64,000 nt of DNA, from positions 3,030,119 to 3,094,118 of the forward strand of contig CP051242.1 in assembly GCA_017795005.1 (NCBI GenBank), given 5' to 3'. The notes beneath the pieces are model-generated. The model was not told where the DNA came from and did not search any database. It worked only from the letters and a program-made list of their open reading frames with translations. How positions within the stretch are numbered: position 1 is the first letter of the stretch; each line of letters opens with the position of its first letter. Positions 9,251-48,912 of this stretch are shown here, piece after piece. Source of the stretch: Balneolaceae bacterium. Its GTDB lineage: Bacteria > Bacteroidota > Rhodothermia > Balneolales > Balneolaceae. The position numbers were made by a program, and so were the translations under genes.

Positions 9251-10963
9251 TTAACCCACCCGAAACTTCAATTCCTCTATTTTTATCAGGATTTCGTTTC
9301 GGTCCATTTCGCGGTAGCGTTCCGGTAGTAATGCTTTTGAAGTACATTCAATTACTGCATTCAGTGTTTGAAGCTCCACTTCTTCCGGATAAGTAGGTGG
9401 AATGAAATCGGATAGTGCTTCATCGAGTATTTCAGGAGTGACTTTCTTTTTTCCTTCAGCAGCCGCCCGGAATTTAGCCCTGGTCAATGCTGCTTCCATA
9501 TCTGCACCGGAAAAGGTTTTGAAACCTTCTTCAATAATTGCAGGAATATACTCTTCCGTCATCTGAAGTCCGGTTTTCTTTTTCATGGCGTTAAATAACT
9601 CCACTCGTTCTTCATTGGTATGAGGTGGGAATAATGCCAGATGTTCTTCCGCTCTACCCTGTCGCTTTAAATCGATAGGCATAAGATCAGGGCGTGCTGT
9701 CATCAGGAACCAGACAATCCGACCTCTGTTACTGGTATCACTCATAAAGGTAGCGATCTGAGAGAAAACACGGCTGGAAACTCCACTATCTCCGCTCGAA
9801 CTACGATCTCCTAAATAAGCGTCCGCTTCATCAATCATCACAGCAACCGGCGACATTGCCTTTAGAATTGATAAAATCTTTTCCAGATTTCCTTCGGTAA
9901 CCCCTTGCCACTGACTTCTGAAGTTTTTGAGTTTTACCATCGGGATACCTACTTCGGTAGCAAAACAGGTCACCAGAAACGTTTTACCCGTTCCAACAGG
10001 ACCGCAAACTAAATATCCCATTGGCATTACGTCCTGTCGACCTTCTTTCAAGGCTTTTACTGCTTTTCGAAGGTGCTCTTTAACGTGTTTATGTCCGGCT
10101 ACATTATCAAGCGAATATGGAGTTTCAATGAATTCAAGTAATCCATATGCTTCCGCTTCTATAAGTTCTTTCTTATTCTCAGCTAAGCCTTCGAAAGTAA
10201 TTTTCTCTTTATTTTCTCGTGCATTTGAAAGCACACTTCTGACATTCACATAATTTAAACCTGCTGTTTGCTGGGCAATTATCTCAGGTTTTACGGCCGA
10301 AATACTTTTGAAATCATCATTGCGAGTTTCAAACTTTATGAAGTCTAATCGGTCTTTCTCCCCTGGAATAGTAATCTTGATATCCGTTGTATAAGGATTT
10401 TGAACCAGTGTTTTATTGAGATCAGCAAGATTCTCCGTGATTAATACCGTTGTAAAATCAGAGGCAAGAAACATAGGATCATGTGCCCAGCGGGAAAGGT
10501 ATACAAGAGAAGTACGATCTTCATTTCCGGTCGAGCCTGTATCACTCATGGGGATGATTGTCTCAGCATAATCAATAATCAGAGCTACGCTTTTTTTCTG
10601 ATCTAACCTTAGACGGAAATATTGTTCTAATAAAGAGAAAACACGTACAGGATCCTTCGGCATCTTATTAGCATAATCGGTTCCAACTAAACTGTCTCTT
10701 CCTGCTACTGCCTGATTAAAATCTGCCTGCGAATCTTTATCTCTAAAATATATTCCTGATGCCCGGTCATAAAAAATCACATAATCACGAGCGCCAAAAA
10801 ACTCATCTGATAAAAATGTTTTAAGTCGATTAAATTCAGTTCCTTCATCGTTTTTCAAAGGCACTAAATCGTGCACATTACCATGTAACAAAAAAGTGTT
10901 GATGGTACGACTTAAGTATTTTCTTGCAAATTCCTGCGACCAGACTGGATAATTATCAAACAT
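9251..10963 (-). CDS. AAA ATPase with degenerate N-terminal AAA domain (Ycf46-like)
   Basis: 570 residues. Residues about 20-200 look like an inactive AAA module: a Walker B-like VALIIDYAE at 126-134 is present but no Walker A. The second module is active-looking, with Walker A GPVGTGKT (321-328), Walker B VAVMIDEAD (373-381), a sensor-1-like VWFLMTARPDL, and an arginine-finger region around LKRQGRAEEH. This arrangement matches Ycf46-type AAA proteins found in cyanobacteria and other bacteria, whose substrates are poorly known. It is cytoplasmic (no signal or membrane segment) and is the last gene of a minus-strand run that includes the PspA cluster. Confidence 0.75.
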   Translation of the reverse strand: MFDNYPVWSQEFARKYLSRTINTFLLHGNVHDLVPLKNDEGTEFNRLKTFLSDEFFGARDYVIFYDRASGIYFRDKDSQADFNQAVAGRDSLVGTDYANKMPKDPVRVFSLLEQYFRLRLDQKKSVALIIDYAETIIPMSDTGSTGNEDRTSLVYLSRWAHDPMFLASDFTTVLITENLADLNKTLVQNPYTTDIKITIPGEKDRLDFIKFETRNDDFKSISAVKPEIIAQQTAGLNYVNVRSVLSNARENKEKITFEGLAENKKELIEAEAYGLLEFIETPYSLDNVAGHKHVKEHLRKAVKALKEGRQDVMPMGYLVCGPVGTGKTFLVTCFATEVGIPMVKLKNFRSQWQGVTEGNLEKILSILKAMSPVAVMIDEADAYLGDRSSSGDSGVSSRVFSQIATFMSDTSNRGRIVWFLMTARPDLMPIDLKRQGRAEEHLALFPPHTNEERVELFNAMKKKTGLQMTEEYIPAIIEEGFKTFSGADMEAALTRAKFRAAAEGKKKVTPEILDEALSDFIPPTYPEEVELQTLNAVIECTSKALLPERYREMDRNEILIKIEELKFRVG

Positions 10964-11091: not shown

Positions 11092-12366
11092 TTACTCAAT
11101 AAGAATCAGCTTTACCGTTTCAATTCTGCTTTGAGTCGCTTTACTAATAATGAATTTTTTATCCTCAATTAGCACCTCTTCGTTCACGGTAGGAATGCGC
11201 CCCAAATAATTTATTATGTAGCCCGCTACGGTATCGTACTCCGAAGGTTCCACAGGAAGTGTAATTTCCTCAAACTTAGCTACCAACTCAACAATTTCCA
11301 CGTTTCCTGAAATCACAAAAGTATTAGTAGAAAGTTTTTTCATGATTTCACTGTCTACATCATGTTCGTCCTGAATATCTCCTACTACCTCTTCAAGTAA
11401 ATCTTCAATCGTAACCATACCGGCAGTTCCACCATATTCATCTAGAACAATTGCAACAGACATATTAGATTGGCGGAATTCAGTGAGCAAATCCTTTGAT
11501 TTTTTACTGTATGGAACAAGTTTAACAGGTCGTATAATCTCATTCAGAGTTTTTGGCTTATTGAAGAGATCGTATGCAAACACAACTCCAATCACATCAT
11601 CAATGGAATCCTGGTAAACGGGAAGTTTGGAGTGTCCTGATTTAATGAATAAATCCAATACCTCATCCAAAGAAGTCTTCTTATCAACCGCTTCAATTTC
11701 AATCCTTGGGATCATCGAGTCCTTAACTCTTTTCGTAGAGAGTTCTAACACGTTGTGCAGAATTTCTGAATCATCCTGATCGATATCTTCACTTCCTCCA
11801 CTTTCTCTCAGTTCTTTGAAAATTAGCTCTACATCCTGCCGACGATAAAGTGAAACTGCTTCTTCAGCGTCTGCTACTAACCATTTAATAAGAACATTAG
11901 AAGAACTGTTTGCCACCGCAATGAGCGGGCGAAGCAAATAATAGCAAAATCTCAGTGGGATAGCTATGATACTAACCATCACATCAGCCTGAGCACGGAA
12001 AATCGCCTTTGGCAAAATCTCACCAAAAATCATAATCAGCACAGAAGCTATTATTGTCTGAACCAGTAAAATCTGAAAATCTGTTGGTGTATGACTAAAC
12101 CATGCTTCAGAATAGCCTATTATTGGATTTACCAAAAAAATAGCCATTAAGGTAGCATAGAGAACATTTATGATATTATTCCCTACAAGAGTTGTAGTTA
12201 TAAAAGTCTCGGGATTACTCTTAAAGAACTCAAGAGAATTTGCAATGAAGTTATTTTTCCGGGATGCAACCTCAAGCTTAAGCTTATTAGCCGTTACAAA
12301 GGCTATTTCAGACCCTGAAAAAAAACCACTTAAGAATATGGTTGCAACGATTAGGAGCCATTCCAT
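11092..12366 (-). CDS. CNNM/CorC-family membrane protein (DUF21, CBS pair, CorC_HlyC)
   Basis: 424 residues, typical of the HlyC/CorC transporter family. Residues 1-190 form the DUF21 transmembrane domain with FLSGFFSGSEIAFVT at the start, TTLVGNNIINVLY and IFGEILPKAIF. A CBS-domain pair covers about 205-330 (DSMIPRIEIEAV, SGHSKLPVYQDS, VLDEYGGTAGMVTIEDLLEEVVGDI), and a CorC_HlyC domain the last 80 residues (VAGYIINYLGRIP). Relatives transport or sense Mg2+ or Co2+; some Bacteroidota relatives (GldE) support gliding, but no gliding gene is nearby. Confidence 0.85.
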   Translation of the reverse strand: MEWLLIVATIFLSGFFSGSEIAFVTANKLKLEVASRKNNFIANSLEFFKSNPETFITTTLVGNNIINVLYATLMAIFLVNPIIGYSEAWFSHTPTDFQILLVQTIIASVLIMIFGEILPKAIFRAQADVMVSIIAIPLRFCYYLLRPLIAVANSSSNVLIKWLVADAEEAVSLYRRQDVELIFKELRESGGSEDIDQDDSEILHNVLELSTKRVKDSMIPRIEIEAVDKKTSLDEVLDLFIKSGHSKLPVYQDSIDDVIGVVFAYDLFNKPKTLNEIIRPVKLVPYSKKSKDLLTEFRQSNMSVAIVLDEYGGTAGMVTIEDLLEEVVGDIQDEHDVDSEIMKKLSTNTFVISGNVEIVELVAKFEEITLPVEPSEYDTVAGYIINYLGRIPTVNEEVLIEDKKFIISKATQSRIETVKLILIE

Positions 12367-12445
12367 AATTATTTGGCTCCTGTTTTTTTATGATTTGATA
12401 TGCTACCCGATGGAGGCTCGTCGCTCATTAACGAAAAATTAGTTC

Positions 12446-13225
12446 CTATTTACCGGAGAAATTCGGCTTACGTTTCTCCATAAATGCCGAAGTTCCTTCC
12501 TTAAAATCAGCAGTGTTGAACAAATCTCCAAATAGATTTGCTTCCATTTCATAACCTGAATCATTTCCTGCTTCTTTCACGGCTAATATAGCATTTTTTA
12601 AAGCCAGAGGTGCCTGTTTTATCATTCCCGAAAGCATTTTTTTTGATGCTTCTGAAATGTCTCCTTCCGCTATACTATTTATCAACCCTAATTGAAATGC
12701 TTCTTCGGCCTTTACAAAGCGACCAGACATGATTAACTCTAATGCTTTTGAGTAACCGACAAGTTTTGTTAATCTTTGAGTACCACCGTAACCAGGAATT
12801 AATCCCAGACTTACTTCGGGTAATCCTAAGACTGCTGCTTTGGAAGCAACTCTGAAATGACATGAAAGTGCCAACTCAAACCCTCCTCCTAACGCATACC
12901 CATTTATAGCTGCAAGTACCGGAATAGACAAATCTTCTATTTTTTGAAATACTTTATGTCCTCTTTTGGAAAGTTTAGTGGCTTGCTCTTTATCAAAATC
13001 TGCAAATTCTTTGATATCGGCGCCAGCAACAAAGGCTTTTTCTCCTGAACCTGTAATAATGAGTGCTCGAATAGATTCATCTTTTTCAATTTGATCCAGA
13101 GCAGAATCAAGTTCTTCAAAAACCTGATTATTTAGTGCATTTAATTGTTTAGGACGATTGATGGATATAGTAGCGATTCTGGAATCTTCTACTTCCAGAA
13201 TTAGCATTTCAAAATCTGAACTCAT
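12446..13225 (-). CDS. Enoyl-CoA hydratase/isomerase (crotonase)
   Basis: 259 residues, standard length. The oxyanion-hole segments AGADIKEF (68-74) and GYALGGGFELAL (109-120) are intact, and both catalytic glutamates of true hydratases are present: E117 in GGFELAL and E137 in LPEVSLGLIPGYGGTQRL. It should hydrate trans-2-enoyl-CoA, possibly crotonyl-CoA, in fatty-acid or butanoate metabolism. It begins three bases after the end of the 296-residue PspA-cluster gene, so it is probably in that transcript although its chemistry is unrelated. Confidence 0.85.
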   Translation of the reverse strand: MSSDFEMLILEVEDSRIATISINRPKQLNALNNQVFEELDSALDQIEKDESIRALIITGSGEKAFVAGADIKEFADFDKEQATKLSKRGHKVFQKIEDLSIPVLAAINGYALGGGFELALSCHFRVASKAAVLGLPEVSLGLIPGYGGTQRLTKLVGYSKALELIMSGRFVKAEEAFQLGLINSIAEGDISEASKKMLSGMIKQAPLALKNAILAVKEAGNDSGYEMEANLFGDLFNTADFKEGTSAFMEKRKPNFSGK

Positions 13226-13228
13226 GTA

Positions 13229-14119
13229 TTATTCCCTGACTCTTTTCTTTTGATCTGTTTCTGAAGTTAGGTCATCAGAAAGTTCATCCAAAATAGAATC
13301 AAAATCCAGTTCGGTCTCCCATTCGGTAGTATATTCGGGAAGTATATCCTGATCCAGGTCATCGATAAGTTGTGAAGTTTCATCAACTTCGGTTAGAAGA
13401 TTATCTAACTGGAAACCAATCTCTTCTGGATTACTCATTGTCATAGACTGCTCGTAAATATATCTGACAGCATCTTCAATAGTTTCGAGATGAGTTTCAC
13501 ATACTAAATATTTTTCTTTAGCGATCTTAAATTTCTGGAGACGCTTCTGCATGATAGCAACACGTCGGGATTTAGTTCGCTTTAGCTTTTCAGATTCAAT
13601 GCTTTTGATTTCTTCAATCTGTCGTACTACCTCTTCTTTCAAATTGGTTTCCAAAGAGGTGTTCAGATAAACCTCATATCGCTTAATCAAATCTAAAAGC
13701 GTTAAATAATTTCCAAGAAGTTCATCGATTTTCTTACCAATATTATCCAACAAGCCTTGTGAACTGTAAGGTAGTTTTTCAAAATTCTCCTGAACTAACT
13801 GGGCAAGATGTTTAAGTACTAAAAACCTTTTTTGGCTGGCTGAATCAAGTGACTGAAATAAATCTTTTTCATTACTTGAAGCGTGGCGTTCTTTAATTTT
13901 TTTAAGTTCCACTTTTTTTCTGAATCGGGGAAGTTTTGGAACAACTCCCAGATACATAAGCTCAACCCCGAATACAGTAGAGAGTAGAATATTCGAAATA
14001 TCAACACTCATACTACTAAAAAAAAGTGCCCCTAACGTGGAAGCTAAAAGTACCCCAAGATTTATGGGATTCAGGAATGCTTCCCTTGTATAATTAATAT
14101 TTAATTCGTCTGTCGACAT
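13229..14119 (-). CDS. Two-TM coiled-coil membrane protein of the PspA cluster
   Basis: 296 residues. Two close hydrophobic segments (about 18-37 and 38-57) are followed by about 240 mostly helical, charged residues with coiled-coil character and an acidic tail (DELSDDLTSETD). I recognise no named domain. Its ATG shares one base with the stop of the upstream half-PspA gene (TAATG), so translation is coupled. The position suggests a membrane anchor or receptor for the PspA-like proteins, which is an inference from context only. Confidence 0.65.
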   Translation of the reverse strand: MSTDELNINYTREAFLNPINLGVLLASTLGALFFSSMSVDISNILLSTVFGVELMYLGVVPKLPRFRKKVELKKIKERHASSNEKDLFQSLDSASQKRFLVLKHLAQLVQENFEKLPYSSQGLLDNIGKKIDELLGNYLTLLDLIKRYEVYLNTSLETNLKEEVVRQIEEIKSIESEKLKRTKSRRVAIMQKRLQKFKIAKEKYLVCETHLETIEDAVRYIYEQSMTMSNPEEIGFQLDNLLTEVDETSQLIDDLDQDILPEYTTEWETELDFDSILDELSDDLTSETDQKKRVRE

Positions 14120-14583
14120 TAACTTTTATCTGAGGAATCTTCGTTATCCGAAGCATCCTCTTTTTTAGTTCCAATTGTTTTTTCTGCGTGAATTTCTTCG
14201 GCATGTTTTTCAATTTCCGAATACAGCATACCCATTTCAGCTTTTACTTGTTGCAAGGTTTGTTTGGCTTTTTGCTTTTTCATTTCAGAATCAAGCTCTT
14301 CTTGCTTTAATTTCCCTGCTGCTGTCGAAGTATCGTCTTCATCCAGACTGTCCATTGCCACATCCAAACGAGCTTCTACATTGGTAACTTTGTCTTTTAC
14401 TTTACCCAAAAACTCATCTACTGATTCCAGAAGATTGTCGGCATTCATGTTATTCAATGCCTGTGCAATCTTACCTTTTTGTTCAGTCTGTTTTAAACGT
14501 TCCTTAGCCTCTTTAATACGTCGGTAATGATCCTTGTATTCTTCCTTAAGGCGTTCGCGTTCTTGTTCACTTCGGGTACTCAT
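14119..14583 (-). CDS. Half-size PspA paralogue (C-terminal half only)
   Basis: 154 residues, highly charged and helical. Residues from about 38 match the C-terminal half of the adjacent PspA in order: KIAQALNNMN against KIADTLEQFE, NVEARLDVAMDSLDE against NEARMEIALDSIDT, and QQVKAEMG against EQFKLEMG. The N-terminal membrane-binding helix and first long hairpin of PspA are missing. It begins 12 bases after pspA ends. It looks like a partial duplication that was kept, perhaps as a regulator or co-assembly partner of PspA. Confidence 0.7.
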   Translation of the reverse strand: MSTRSEQERERLKEEYKDHYRRIKEAKERLKQTEQKGKIAQALNNMNADNLLESVDEFLGKVKDKVTNVEARLDVAMDSLDEDDTSTAAGKLKQEELDSEMKKQKAKQTLQQVKAEMGMLYSEIEKHAEEIHAEKTIGTKKEDASDNEDSSDKS

Positions 14584-14595
14584 TGTGGCAACCTG

Positions 14596-15342
14596 TTAGC
14601 TTTTCTCTTTGTTGCCAACTGATTTCGTAGGAGCAGCTTCTTCTTTGGCTGGTTCTTCATCGATAGAAATTGATCCTGATGACTCTCCCATCTCAAGCTT
14701 GAATTGCTCTACAAGCTCATGAGCTCGAATTTTCTCTGCATTTGCTTCAATCTCCATAGTTTGAGTATCAATGCTGTCTAAGGCAATCTCCATACGAGCT
14801 TCATTTTTTGCAGATTCTTCATTAAGTCTGGAGATCATTTCATCATGAGTCTGATCTATGCCACCTACTTCAAACTGTTCAAGTGTATCAGCAATTTTAG
14901 CTTGCCATTCTGCACGTTCGCTTGCGCGTAGTGCTTCTTTAGCTTCCTGAATTTTTCTGTCTTTTTCACGCATAAAGACTTTTTTCACCTTCAGTGCTTT
15001 TTCATAAGCACGTTCTGCAAATTGTAACTGATCTTTAGAGTGAACAATCGTTTCTTTAGCTTTTTCAAGCTGAAGAGCATAACCTTCTGCTATATCATCT
15101 CTTCCAGCTTTAATCGCAGATTTAATTTTTGATGTAAGATCAACAATTTGTTTTTCATTGCGCTTAACCTCTTTCTGGAGCATAATCAGGTTTGCTTTCA
15201 CAGTAGCAATATTCTCATTCATCTGAGGAATCTGATCATTCAGTTCGCGAATATTTTGCTCTAAAATTAATTTTGGGTTCTCCATGGAGCTTATTACTCC
15301 ACCGAACATTGATTTGAGTGCGCGAATAAATCTTTTAAACAT
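14596..15342 (-). CDS. pspA: PspA/IM30 (Vipp1) family membrane-stress protein
   Basis: 248 residues, close to the usual 220-260. It starts with the amphipathic membrane-binding helix MFKRFIRALKSMFGG and ENPKLILEQNIREL, followed by the long coiled-coil hairpin and the conserved C-terminal helices (SERAEWQAKIADTLEQ, NEARMEIALDSID), ending in an acidic, charged tail. The family forms ESCRT-III-like polymers on the inner membrane that stabilise it under stress. No pspF, pspB or pspC lies here; instead a half-PspA and a two-TM coiled-coil protein follow. Confidence 0.9.
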   Translation of the reverse strand: MFKRFIRALKSMFGGVISSMENPKLILEQNIRELNDQIPQMNENIATVKANLIMLQKEVKRNEKQIVDLTSKIKSAIKAGRDDIAEGYALQLEKAKETIVHSKDQLQFAERAYEKALKVKKVFMREKDRKIQEAKEALRASERAEWQAKIADTLEQFEVGGIDQTHDEMISRLNEESAKNEARMEIALDSIDTQTMEIEANAEKIRAHELVEQFKLEMGESSGSISIDEEPAKEEAAPTKSVGNKEKS

Positions 15343-15415
15343 GGTTTTTACCGTAAATTTTATGCCCTTTTATATCAGGAACTAAGTTAACTGATTATTA
15401 TCGTAATTCAACATG

Positions 15416-16759
15416 CTAAAGCTCAAATGCCCTTGTGCCTTCGCTGTCGCAAACATGAGTTACCAGAAGTTCCGGTTCCGGTTGCTCAACGCTGATCTTA
15501 ACTGCTCCGTATAATTGTTTCGTCACGGTTTCGATCGTGGCTGGCTTGTTCGTGTATCCGGTCAAAATTGTTTCACCTTTCAAAATTTTGTCGCCAACTT
15601 TCTTTTTTAATGATATACCTGCTGTCGGATCGATGATATCCTCTATACTTTTTCTTCCAGCACCCAGCTCTAAAGATCCCATTCCTATTTCATAAGAATT
15701 CATGGACTTGATAAAACCTTCCTCTTCACTTTTCAGCTCAAATTCGTATCTGGCTTTTGGATATTGACCGGGATTCTTAATCACAGATGAATCTCCTCCC
15801 TGTTCCTCAACAATATCTATCCACTTCTGAAAGGCTTTTCCATTACTTATTGTTTCTTCACTTTTTTTAATTCCTTCTTCCACGCTTCCGGCCTTTCCTC
15901 CTAAATAAATCATAGTTCCCGAGAGTAAATTTGAAAGTTTCATAATATCATCAGGACCCTCTCCACGAAGTGCATTAACACACTCTTCTACCTCGAGCCA
16001 GTTTCCGATATTAAATCCTAAAGGTTGATTCATATTAGTGAGGTATGCAATAGTTTTCTTTCCAAATCTTTCACCAATTTCTACCAACTCTTCAGCTAAC
16101 TCAGTTGCATCTTCCACAGTTTTCATAAAAGCGCCGGAACCGTATTTTACATCAAGGACCAAAGCATCTATTCCCTCCGCCAGCTTTTTACTCATGATGC
16201 TTCCTGCGATATAGGGGATAAACTCTACTGTAGCTGTGACATCCCTAAGTGCATATAATTTCTTATCTGCCGGTGCGATTTCCTTTGTCTGACCTGCCAA
16301 TACCAAATTATGTTTAGAAATTATCTCAATATATCGATCAAGATTCATATCGGTATAAAAACCCGGTATAGACTCGAGTTTATCTAAGGTTCCTCCGGTG
16401 TGTCCAAGTCCACGACCGGAAATCATCGGAACCGGAACCCCAACCGAAGCAACCACAGGCGCAAGAATCAATGATAGTTTATCACCTACACCTCCAGTTG
16501 AATGTTTATCCACTTTTTTTCCGGGGATACCAGATAAATCTACCACGATTCCTGAATGTAGCATAGAATCAGTAAGCGCAGTTGCTTCCTCCATATTCAT
16601 TCCATTCAGAAATCCAGCCATCAAAAAAGCACTGATCTGGTAGTCTTCAATCTCATGATTTGTGTACGCTTTAATGAGATAATGAATCTCATCACTCGTA
16701 AGACTTTCTCCGTCTCGTTTTTTGCGAATAAGTGAAACTATGTTATACTTGGAACTCAT
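15416..16759 (-). CDS. deoA: Thymidine/pyrimidine-nucleoside phosphorylase
   Basis: 447 residues from ATG at 16757-16759 (MSSKYNIVSLIRKKRDG); an in-frame ATG 18 bases upstream would add MTYTWS, which family members lack. The phosphate-binding signature KHSTGGVGD is at 85-93, followed by SGRGLGHTGGTLDKLE. It catalyses phosphorolysis of thymidine, deoxyuridine or uridine to base plus (deoxy)ribose-1-phosphate in nucleoside salvage. The C-terminal PYNP domain is present (VGDKILKGETILTGY). Whether it is strict thymidine phosphorylase or the broader Bacillus type cannot be decided by eye. Confidence 0.9.
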   Translation of the reverse strand: MSSKYNIVSLIRKKRDGESLTSDEIHYLIKAYTNHEIEDYQISAFLMAGFLNGMNMEEATALTDSMLHSGIVVDLSGIPGKKVDKHSTGGVGDKLSLILAPVVASVGVPVPMISGRGLGHTGGTLDKLESIPGFYTDMNLDRYIEIISKHNLVLAGQTKEIAPADKKLYALRDVTATVEFIPYIAGSIMSKKLAEGIDALVLDVKYGSGAFMKTVEDATELAEELVEIGERFGKKTIAYLTNMNQPLGFNIGNWLEVEECVNALRGEGPDDIMKLSNLLSGTMIYLGGKAGSVEEGIKKSEETISNGKAFQKWIDIVEEQGGDSSVIKNPGQYPKARYEFELKSEEEGFIKSMNSYEIGMGSLELGAGRKSIEDIIDPTAGISLKKKVGDKILKGETILTGYTNKPATIETVTKQLYGAVKISVEQPEPELLVTHVCDSEGTRAFEL

Positions 16760-16812
16760 AGACCAAGTATAGGTCAATTCAGCATTATTTTCTCACTTTA
16801 ACCTGATTTTCT

Positions 16813-17925
16813 TTGATCAAAGTAATTGCCGATCAAAATCTGTACAGATTGAAAGAATTTCTTCCTGATGAGGTTGACTTAACAACCTATGATCCGGCAG
16901 AAGGACTACCGGATACTTCAGGTTATCAGGCATTGCTTATCAGAACAGTTTCTAAACTTAATCCGGAAACTTTTCCAAAACTTCCCTCATCGCTAACATT
17001 TGTCGGAACCGCATCCTCAGGAAGTGATCATGTGGATAAAGAATACCTTAAATCACACAATATCCAATTTGCTGATGCATTGGGTAATAACTCAAGAGCA
17101 GTTGCTGAATATGTGATGACCGCATTGCTCATTTGGAGAGAAGAAAAAGGAAAGAAACTGGAGGAACTTACGTATGGTGTAATTGGAGTTGGACATGCGG
17201 GATCAGCGGTAGCAAATATTCTACATGATTTTGGGTTAAAAACAGTGCTATATGATCCTCCAAGAGCAAAGCGAAACCCAGACTTTGTCTCCGCTTCAAT
17301 AAAAGATGTTCTAAATTGCGATGTTCTTACTTTTCATACACCGTATTTAGAATCAGGAGAATCCGCTACAAGATATTGGCTGGATAAGGAGAAATTGTCT
17401 GGAAGAAATTTTGAACTGATTATCAATGCTGCACGAGGTGGTATCATTGATGAAGCAGCTGTTTATTCTGCGATGAAATCCGGTTCTGTTAAAGATGTGA
17501 TTATTGATGTTTGGGATAATGAACCTGACTTTAATCCGAATCTAGCTTCACTTGCTTTTATCGCTACTCCTCATAATGCAGGACACTCAGAGCAATCCAA
17601 GTTAAATGCCAGCAAAATGATTTGTGAAAAATTGTGCTCTTTTTTTGGATTGACCTTCCCTCCCACAGAAGGATTGTATTCCGTTAAAGAACTCAATCCC
17701 GCGCATTTGAAATATTCGCTCACTGATTGGCTCCTGAAACTGCATCCCATTAAAGAATACGATGCTGCACTCAGAGACTTAGCTCATCGCCCGGATAAAA
17801 CCACGTTGTTTGCCAAACTCAGAACCGATCGTCCTTATCGGTATGAATATGGGTTTATAAAACTTGATGAAGAGTTTTTGAATGGCTTTGAAGAGTTGAA
17901 GAAACTGGGGGTAAAAAGTATCTAA
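16813..17925 (+). CDS. pdxB: Erythronate-4-phosphate dehydrogenase
   Basis: 370 residues from TTG 16813. It belongs to the D-2-hydroxyacid dehydrogenase family: an NAD-binding loop in YGVIGVGHAGSAVA, catalytic Arg in INAARGGIIDE, Glu in DVWDNEPDF, and His in ATPHNAGHS. The HNAGHS wording, the N-terminal IKVIADQNLY and a C-terminal dimerisation extension point to PdxB rather than SerA. It oxidises 4-phosphoerythronate in the DXP-dependent pyridoxal-phosphate pathway. Divergent from deoA. Confidence 0.85.
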   Translation: MIKVIADQNLYRLKEFLPDEVDLTTYDPAEGLPDTSGYQALLIRTVSKLNPETFPKLPSSLTFVGTASSGSDHVDKEYLKSHNIQFADALGNNSRAVAEYVMTALLIWREEKGKKLEELTYGVIGVGHAGSAVANILHDFGLKTVLYDPPRAKRNPDFVSASIKDVLNCDVLTFHTPYLESGESATRYWLDKEKLSGRNFELIINAARGGIIDEAAVYSAMKSGSVKDVIIDVWDNEPDFNPNLASLAFIATPHNAGHSEQSKLNASKMICEKLCSFFGLTFPPTEGLYSVKELNPAHLKYSLTDWLLKLHPIKEYDAALRDLAHRPDKTTLFAKLRTDRPYRYEYGFIKLDEEFLNGFEELKKLGVKSI

Positions 17926-48132: not shown

Positions 48133-48912
48133 ATGAAGCTTACTTATACCAGTTATCTGAAGATTGATGAACTAACTACTCTTCAGGATTTAAAATCTAA
48201 TCCCCCAGAACATGATGAAATGCTCTTCATCATTATTCATCAAACGTATGAATTATGGTTTAAGCAGATACTACATGAATTTAGTAAGCTTCGAAGAGAA
48301 CTCGAATCCGGTAACACCTGGAATTCTGTAAAAACGCTACGTCGGATTCTTACGATTATGAAGACATTGGTTTCTCAAGTGGATATTCTTGAAACCATGA
48401 CCCCATTAGAATTCAACAGCTTCAGGGCGTTTTTAGGGCAATCGAGTGGATTTCAGTCGCTTCAATTCAGAGAGATAGAAATTATATGTGGACTAAGGCT
48501 CCCCCTGATGATTGAAGCACATAAAGACAATCCTAAACATATAGAAATTCTTGAAACCAGAATGCAAGAATCTACTTTATGGGAAAGTTTTGGAATGTAT
48601 CTATCCAAAAAAGGATTTTCTGTACAACCCAAACGAGAAAATGAAATTGGGTTGATGTTTAATCCATCGGATGAAATTCAAAAAACGCTTATTGAAGTTA
48701 TGCAAACGGAACCCGAATTGGCTTTAGTTTGCGAGTTATTTGTGGATTTTGATGAAGGTTTGCAGGAATGGAGGTATCGTCATGTTAAAATGGTCGAACG
48801 AACTATTGGAAGAAAAAAAGGTACCGGTGGATCTCCTGGGGTGAAATACCTGAAAACAACTACAAATCATGCCATTTTCCCGGATTTATGGGCTATCAGA
48901 TCAGAGTTTTAA
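48133..48912 (+). CDS. kynA: Tryptophan 2,3-dioxygenase
   Basis: 259 residues, slightly shorter than the usual 270-290. Diagnostic segments: HDEMLFIIIHQTYELWFKQILHE near residue 29, EFNSFRAFLGQSSGFQSLQFREIE, the probable haem ligand His in WRYRHVKMVERTIG, and TGGSPGVKYLKTT near the end. It opens the indole ring of tryptophan to N-formylkynurenine. A kynureninase-like gene lies 0.7 kb downstream, with a broken membrane-protein gene between. No kynurenine formamidase is seen here. Confidence 0.92.
   Translation: MKLTYTSYLKIDELTTLQDLKSNPPEHDEMLFIIIHQTYELWFKQILHEFSKLRRELESGNTWNSVKTLRRILTIMKTLVSQVDILETMTPLEFNSFRAFLGQSSGFQSLQFREIEIICGLRLPLMIEAHKDNPKHIEILETRMQESTLWESFGMYLSKKGFSVQPKRENEIGLMFNPSDEIQKTLIEVMQTEPELALVCELFVDFDEGLQEWRYRHVKMVERTIGRKKGTGGSPGVKYLKTTTNHAIFPDLWAIRSEF

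Follow-up and report, generated by a model that had tools for sequence, protein, structure and literature searches.

What does a gene for half a PspA do directly behind pspA? The question is raised by a 64,000-nt stretch of the Balneolaceae bacterium contig CP051242.1 (assembly GCA_017795005.1, positions 3,030,119 to 3,094,118 of the forward strand), here called the window, with all coordinates below counted from its first letter. In it pspA is followed by a short gene that we call half-pspA. A preliminary description of the locus took the product for a half-size PspA paralogue that resembles only the C-terminal half of PspA, lacks the membrane-binding N-terminus and could cap or modulate ESCRT-III-like PspA polymers. 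Our comparisons bear out the paralogy and add a tail motif, KT[IVL]G, that is found in both proteins and was overlooked in that description. In the class Rhodothermia this motif and an AAA+ ATPase encoded in the same window are lost together. We tentatively propose, at a probability of roughly 0.4, that half-PspA is an accessory ESCRT-III-like subunit that offers docking motifs to a Vps4-like AAA+ ATPase.

Half-PspA is a paralogue of the C-terminal half of PspA

The pspA gene (14596..15342, minus strand) encodes 248 residues, matches the Pfam family PF04012 with 60 bits and is the only PspA gene of the genome, which is a single contig of 3.75 Mb. Half-pspA (14119..14583, minus strand) starts with an ATG codon 12 nt downstream of pspA, encodes 154 residues and overlaps the next gene, which encodes a 296-residue coiled-coil protein (13229..14119), by 1 nt. 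BLASTP aligned the half protein with residues 129-245 of the adjacent PspA (30% identity over 127 residues, E=1e-10). The Smith-Waterman score of the pair was 141, as compared to a mean of 54-58 and a maximum of 103 for 1000 heptad-preserving shuffles (z = 9-11), and the half protein scored only 55 against the neighbouring 296-residue protein, placing the similarity well above that between unrelated coiled coils. The C-terminal half of PspA accounted for this similarity with a score of 139 as compared to 42 for the N-terminal half. At all 32 loci compared, PspA gave the half protein a higher score than the coiled-coil protein did. Profile alignment of the two families with hhalign gave 99.4% (E 2.4e-21) and covered PspA residues ~128-222 only, while the half family against the coiled-coil family gave 0.3%. 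Together the shuffles and the profile alignment bear out that the half protein and PspA share an ancestor in the helix 4 and helix 5 region.

The half protein itself is not covered by any Pfam or NCBIfam model. It had no match to PF04012 at E<=1, the Pfam gathering score being passed by the adjacent PspA only, and searches of Pfam, NCBIfam and PDB sequences returned chance-level matches only. An Rfam scan of 13000-16900 gave no matches. Comparison with the nearest relatives resulted in a ratio of nonsynonymous to synonymous substitution rates (dN/dS) of ~0.04, indicating that half-pspA is under purifying selection. A survey of relatives found two adjacent matches, PspA and the half protein, in most of them, and of the 119 pspA-holding Rhodothermia loci examined, 107 carried the triad of pspA, half-pspA and the 296-residue gene in this order on a single strand. 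Hosts of this cassette include Balneola, Gracilimonas, Rhodohalobacter, Fodinibius, Rhodothermales and Salinibacteraceae.

AlphaFold2 predicted three helices and a disordered tail for the half protein. The first predicted helix (residues 3-45, 14449..14577, minus strand, as are the segments that follow) matches the end of PspA helix 3 and carries a motif specific to the half proteins, ERLKEE(Y/E)KxH(Y/L)RK. The second (residues 48-86, 14326..14442), with EARLDVAMDS, is the predicted equivalent of PspA helix 4, and the third (residues 90-134, 14182..14316), with KAKxTLxQxKxEMG, that of helix 5. Helix 4 and helix 5 sequences are closely similar between the two proteins. The N-terminus of the half protein, MSTRSEQERERLKEEYKDHYRR, is conserved and highly charged, and an equivalent of the amphipathic helix 0 is absent. 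The helix 1-helix 2/3 hairpin is absent as well, as judged from the alignment, which begins at about PspA residue 128, and from the three-helix model. Foldseek and VIA searches with the model found no PDB match, which is uninformative for three isolated helices. The preliminary description was thus correct in the half-size paralogue, on which sequence, profile and predicted secondary structure agree, in its position right after pspA, in the restriction of the similarity to the C-terminal half and in the missing membrane-binding N-terminus.

PspA and half-PspA share a tail motif

In the half protein KTIG (residues 135-138, 14170..14181) stands at the start of the predicted disordered tail, and the PspA sequence has KSVG at residues 240-243 (14614..14625), both on the minus strand. 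Tails were searched with the pattern [KR][TS][ILV]G, in which the second position is T or S by design. The motif was detected in 36 of 36 aligned half tails, where shuffled tails gave an expectation of 0.4, and in 28 of 36 PspA tails (0.3 expected from shuffles). Within the last 45 residues it was present in 114 of 118 open reading frames (ORFs) for PspA or the half protein as compared to 8 of 600 other ORFs at the same loci. The shuffles and the ORF background rule out a chance feature of such tails. Among 109 pspA-half-pspA pairs, all 12 that lack the motif in PspA have it twice in the half protein, and 108 pairs have at least two copies over both proteins. This two-copy pattern is suggestive only, because the 12 pairs concerned fall into few clades.

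A scan of the bacterium's own genome for a KTIGR-like DNA pattern gave 22 matches versus 53 in the reversed control and hence no genome-wide enrichment of the motif at the DNA level. One ORF elsewhere in the window (48133-48912, plus strand) has RTIG near its C-terminus (ERTIGRKKGTGGS); it appears to belong to a different, catalytic motif and to match by chance.

The tail motif and an AAA+ ATPase are lost together

Three genes beyond the downstream neighbour of half-pspA, in the same gene cluster of the window, lies a gene for a 570-residue AAA+ ATPase (9251..10963, minus strand), our proposed remodeller. Alignment indicates a degenerate first AAA domain, which has lost its Walker A, and a second domain that looks active. 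The second domain has GPVGTGKT as Walker A (9980..10003, minus strand), FRSQWQG as pore loop 1 (9902..9922, minus strand) and VMIDEAD, and its core residues, including W352 of the pore loop, are invariant in 17 homologues. Among PDB entries the protein is best matched by archaeal VCP-like ATPases and Cdc48. In a sample of the phylum, the N-terminal half of the ATPase was found in 49 of 49 Rhodothermia and in 0 of 147 other Bacteroidota. Outside Balneolales the ATPase gene is either on a different contig from the cassette or at a great distance from it.

Within the class sample, motif and ATPase were both present in 96 genomes and both absent in 6; one genome (G111) had the motif only and none had the ATPase only. 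A search with an ATPase derived from family f3 upheld the absences and added G044 as a genome with neither (7 in total). Half gene, motif and ATPase were lost and PspA kept in family f3 (L199-L202; G042 excepted) and in G006 (L203), the latter additionally lacking the third cassette gene. Families f6 and f20 have lost the half gene and keep both the PspA motif and the ATPase, which ties the ATPase to the motif rather than to the half gene. Linkage alone does not account for the pattern, as the ATPase gene is distant from the cassette outside Balneolales and f3 still has the genes between the cassette and ATPase positions. Mapped on the PspA tree, the motif changed twice and the ATPase three times, each of the two motif losses coinciding with a loss of the ATPase; the length-weighted chance of such coincidence was ~0.0015. 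The motif is unlikely to be a ligand for the product of the third gene, since f3 keeps that gene and has lost the motif.

Five genomes without detectable PspA (G016, G017, G022, G053 and G083) were likewise without the ATPase, some of these assemblies being small or fragmented.

A proposed role in polymer remodelling

Half-pspA probably arose by duplication of a Rhodothermia pspA and loss of its N-terminal half. Its product would join the PspA polymer via the helix 4/helix 5 segment and, for want of helix 0 and the hairpin, would be incapable of membrane binding or lattice extension. It would bring one or two extra KT[IVL]G tail motifs to the polymer, and the tails of half-PspA and PspA together may form docking or entry sites for the ATPase encoded at 9251-10963. 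By analogy to ESCRT-III tails and Vps4, the ATPase could then pull subunits out, leading to remodelling or recycling of the polymer. The 296-residue protein, with its predicted transmembrane (TM) hairpin, would be a likely membrane-side partner. The conserved shared motif, its retention in half proteins that lack helix 5 and its co-loss with the ATPase are what point to an adaptor for ATP-driven remodelling.

Several observations weigh against this proposal. In G111 the motif is present and the ATPase was not found, although this is a draft assembly, 92% complete and in 220 contigs. Families f6 and f20 exist without the half gene at all. The independent co-losses number two only, so that an independent-pairs sign test cannot reach significance, and the co-loss test is partly post hoc because the ATPase was chosen for lying in the cluster. 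Sequence scans (Pfam E<=1) found no MIT-like domain in the ATPase, and its N-terminal half aligns as a degenerate AAA domain; a divergent binding domain is conceivable. Half proteins of family f8 (L192-L195, L073 and L225) have 117-138 residues and keep KTIG or KTFG without the helix-5 segment, so docking through helix 5 cannot be general. The motif might just as well be recognised by a kinase or another partner.

Alternative explanations

The preliminary description suggested a cap or modulator of PspA polymers. As a cap or dominant-negative subunit, half-PspA would enter the terminal PspA hairpin with its helix 5, block growth and thereby limit rod length, with the motif being secondary. In Vipp1, helix 5 of one subunit inserts into the hairpin of its neighbour (PMC8281802). 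Half-PspA has this plug but no socket, which makes capping a reasonable idea, and the close similarity of helices 4 and 5 to those of PspA and the missing helix 0 agree with it. However, the f8 half proteins have retained the motif and not the plug, and pure capping leaves both the near-invariance of the motif and its co-loss with the ATPase unexplained. The earlier proposal is plausible; a role as ATPase adaptor is better supported than capping, which is possible and in our estimation unlikely. A membrane-side scaffold, in which half-PspA bridges PspA and the TM coiled-coil protein as a substitute for PspB/PspC and no dedicated ATPase takes part, would fit three genes that are adjacent in a single order at 107 loci and a third product predicted to have an N-terminal TM hairpin and long helices. 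The third gene nevertheless persists in f3, f6 and f20 after loss of the half gene, and the motif tracks the ATPase rather than the third gene, which leaves this explanation rather improbable.

The motif might instead be a phosphorylation site through which a Ser/Thr kinase controls assembly of PspA and half-PspA. Thr and Ser do alternate at its second position after Lys or Arg, within a search pattern that allows only these two, and the corynebacterial PspA homologue RsmP is described as regulating cell shape via phosphorylation (PMC11237479). This analysis linked no kinase to the motif, however, and a phosphorylation site does not predict co-loss with an ATPase; we regard it as quite improbable. 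That half-pspA is merely a decaying duplicate of pspA with no function of its own would account for its loss in four lineages, but a decaying gene is hard to reconcile with dN/dS of ~0.04, retention throughout the class and a conserved N-terminal motif of its own, and we give this explanation almost no credence.

Distribution of the cassette and neighbouring genes

Among the Bacteroidota sampled, the half protein was not found outside Rhodothermia; its profile gave a few weak matches there, to PspA or to unrelated proteins such as a 1110-residue ORF of L209. PspA proteins of other Bacteroidota score far higher with the Pfam model and form a separate branch.

The third cassette gene (13229..14119, minus strand) encodes a protein with a predicted N-terminal TM hairpin and long helices that belongs to no Pfam family. 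It was present in 49 of 49 Rhodothermia genomes and in 0 of 149 other Bacteroidota. Since it persists in f3, f6 and f20, the half protein is not required for it. Profile comparison gave 3.5% and does not support this protein as a further PspA paralogue. Structure comparison returned many matches to BAR and F-BAR domains at Z 8-10, which are suggestive but below the ~13 that the tool gives for helical bundles; we do not claim a BAR identity. Beyond it on the minus strand lie an enoyl-CoA hydratase-like gene (12446..13225) and a CNNM/CorC-type transporter gene (11092..12366), both conserved neighbours. In most of 20 loci taken from across the class, the triad has genes for a nucleoside phosphorylase, an enoyl-CoA hydratase and a CNNM-type transporter as its neighbours, an arrangement that covers 11092-16777 (minus strand) in the window.

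Relation to known systems

As compared to the PspA/IM30/Vipp1 family (PF04012), the half protein is homologous over the end of helix 3, helix 4 and helix 5 and its gene directly follows pspA; unlike the family, it has no helix 0, hairpin or Pfam match and carries its own N-terminal motif and one or two KTIG tail motifs. The proposed system resembles ESCRT-III/Vps4 with its accessory subunits in that helical subunits build a polymer and bear short motifs in their disordered C-terminal tails, with an AAA+ protein and an accessory paralogue alongside. In ESCRT-III, accessory subunits such as Did2 coordinate Vps4. With Vps4-type ATPases the window ATPase shares Walker A, Walker B and an aromatic pore loop in its second domain. 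It differs in that sequence scans detected no MIT domain and its best matches are Cdc48/VCP-like rather than Vps4-like. KT[IVL]G is also unrelated in sequence to MIT-interacting motifs (MIMs).

Ravi et al. (2024) note in one sentence that Bacteroidetes have PspA together with Snf7 and a third coiled-coil gene (CBH24266.1; PMC11237479). With pspA and neighbouring coiled-coil genes, this is probably the same cassette. We take CBH24266 to be an accession of Salinibacter ruber M8. The main text of that paper, as far as searched, is silent on the paralogy with the C-terminal half, the tail motif, the distribution across the class and the connection to the ATPase. The same authors describe that in some clades PspA co-occurs with a protein of two AAA domains, the N-terminal one inactive (AEY64321.1), and suggest ATP-dependent remodelling (PMC11237479). 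The window ATPase can be likened to this protein by architecture only, as both have a degenerate first domain, an active-looking second domain and a link to PspA; AEY64321.1 belongs to other clades, and the Rhodothermia ATPase gene usually does not adjoin pspA outside Balneolales. Another study discusses the weak ATPase activity of PspA itself and notes that the AAA+ protein PspF does not accompany every PspA (PMC11746142).

No paper searched was found to describe the paralogy of the half protein, its tail motif, the triad throughout the class or the co-loss of motif and ATPase, most subscription journals and supplements being outside reach. Literature searches for PspA in Salinibacter, Balneolales or Rhodothermales gave no further description. 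Related neighbourhoods are touched on by Ravi et al. (2024).

It is possible, though we hold it as doubtful, that Rhodothermia own a complete ESCRT-III/Vps4-like machine, in which a PspA polymer, a membrane-free half-PspA that tunes the number of tail motifs and a TM-anchored coiled-coil partner would be served by a dedicated Cdc48-like ATPase reading a KT[IVL]G code. The class-wide combination of PspA with a half paralogue, a tail motif common to both and an AAA+ ATPase lost along with that motif provides a concrete candidate for a machine that disassembles bacterial ESCRT-III-like polymers.
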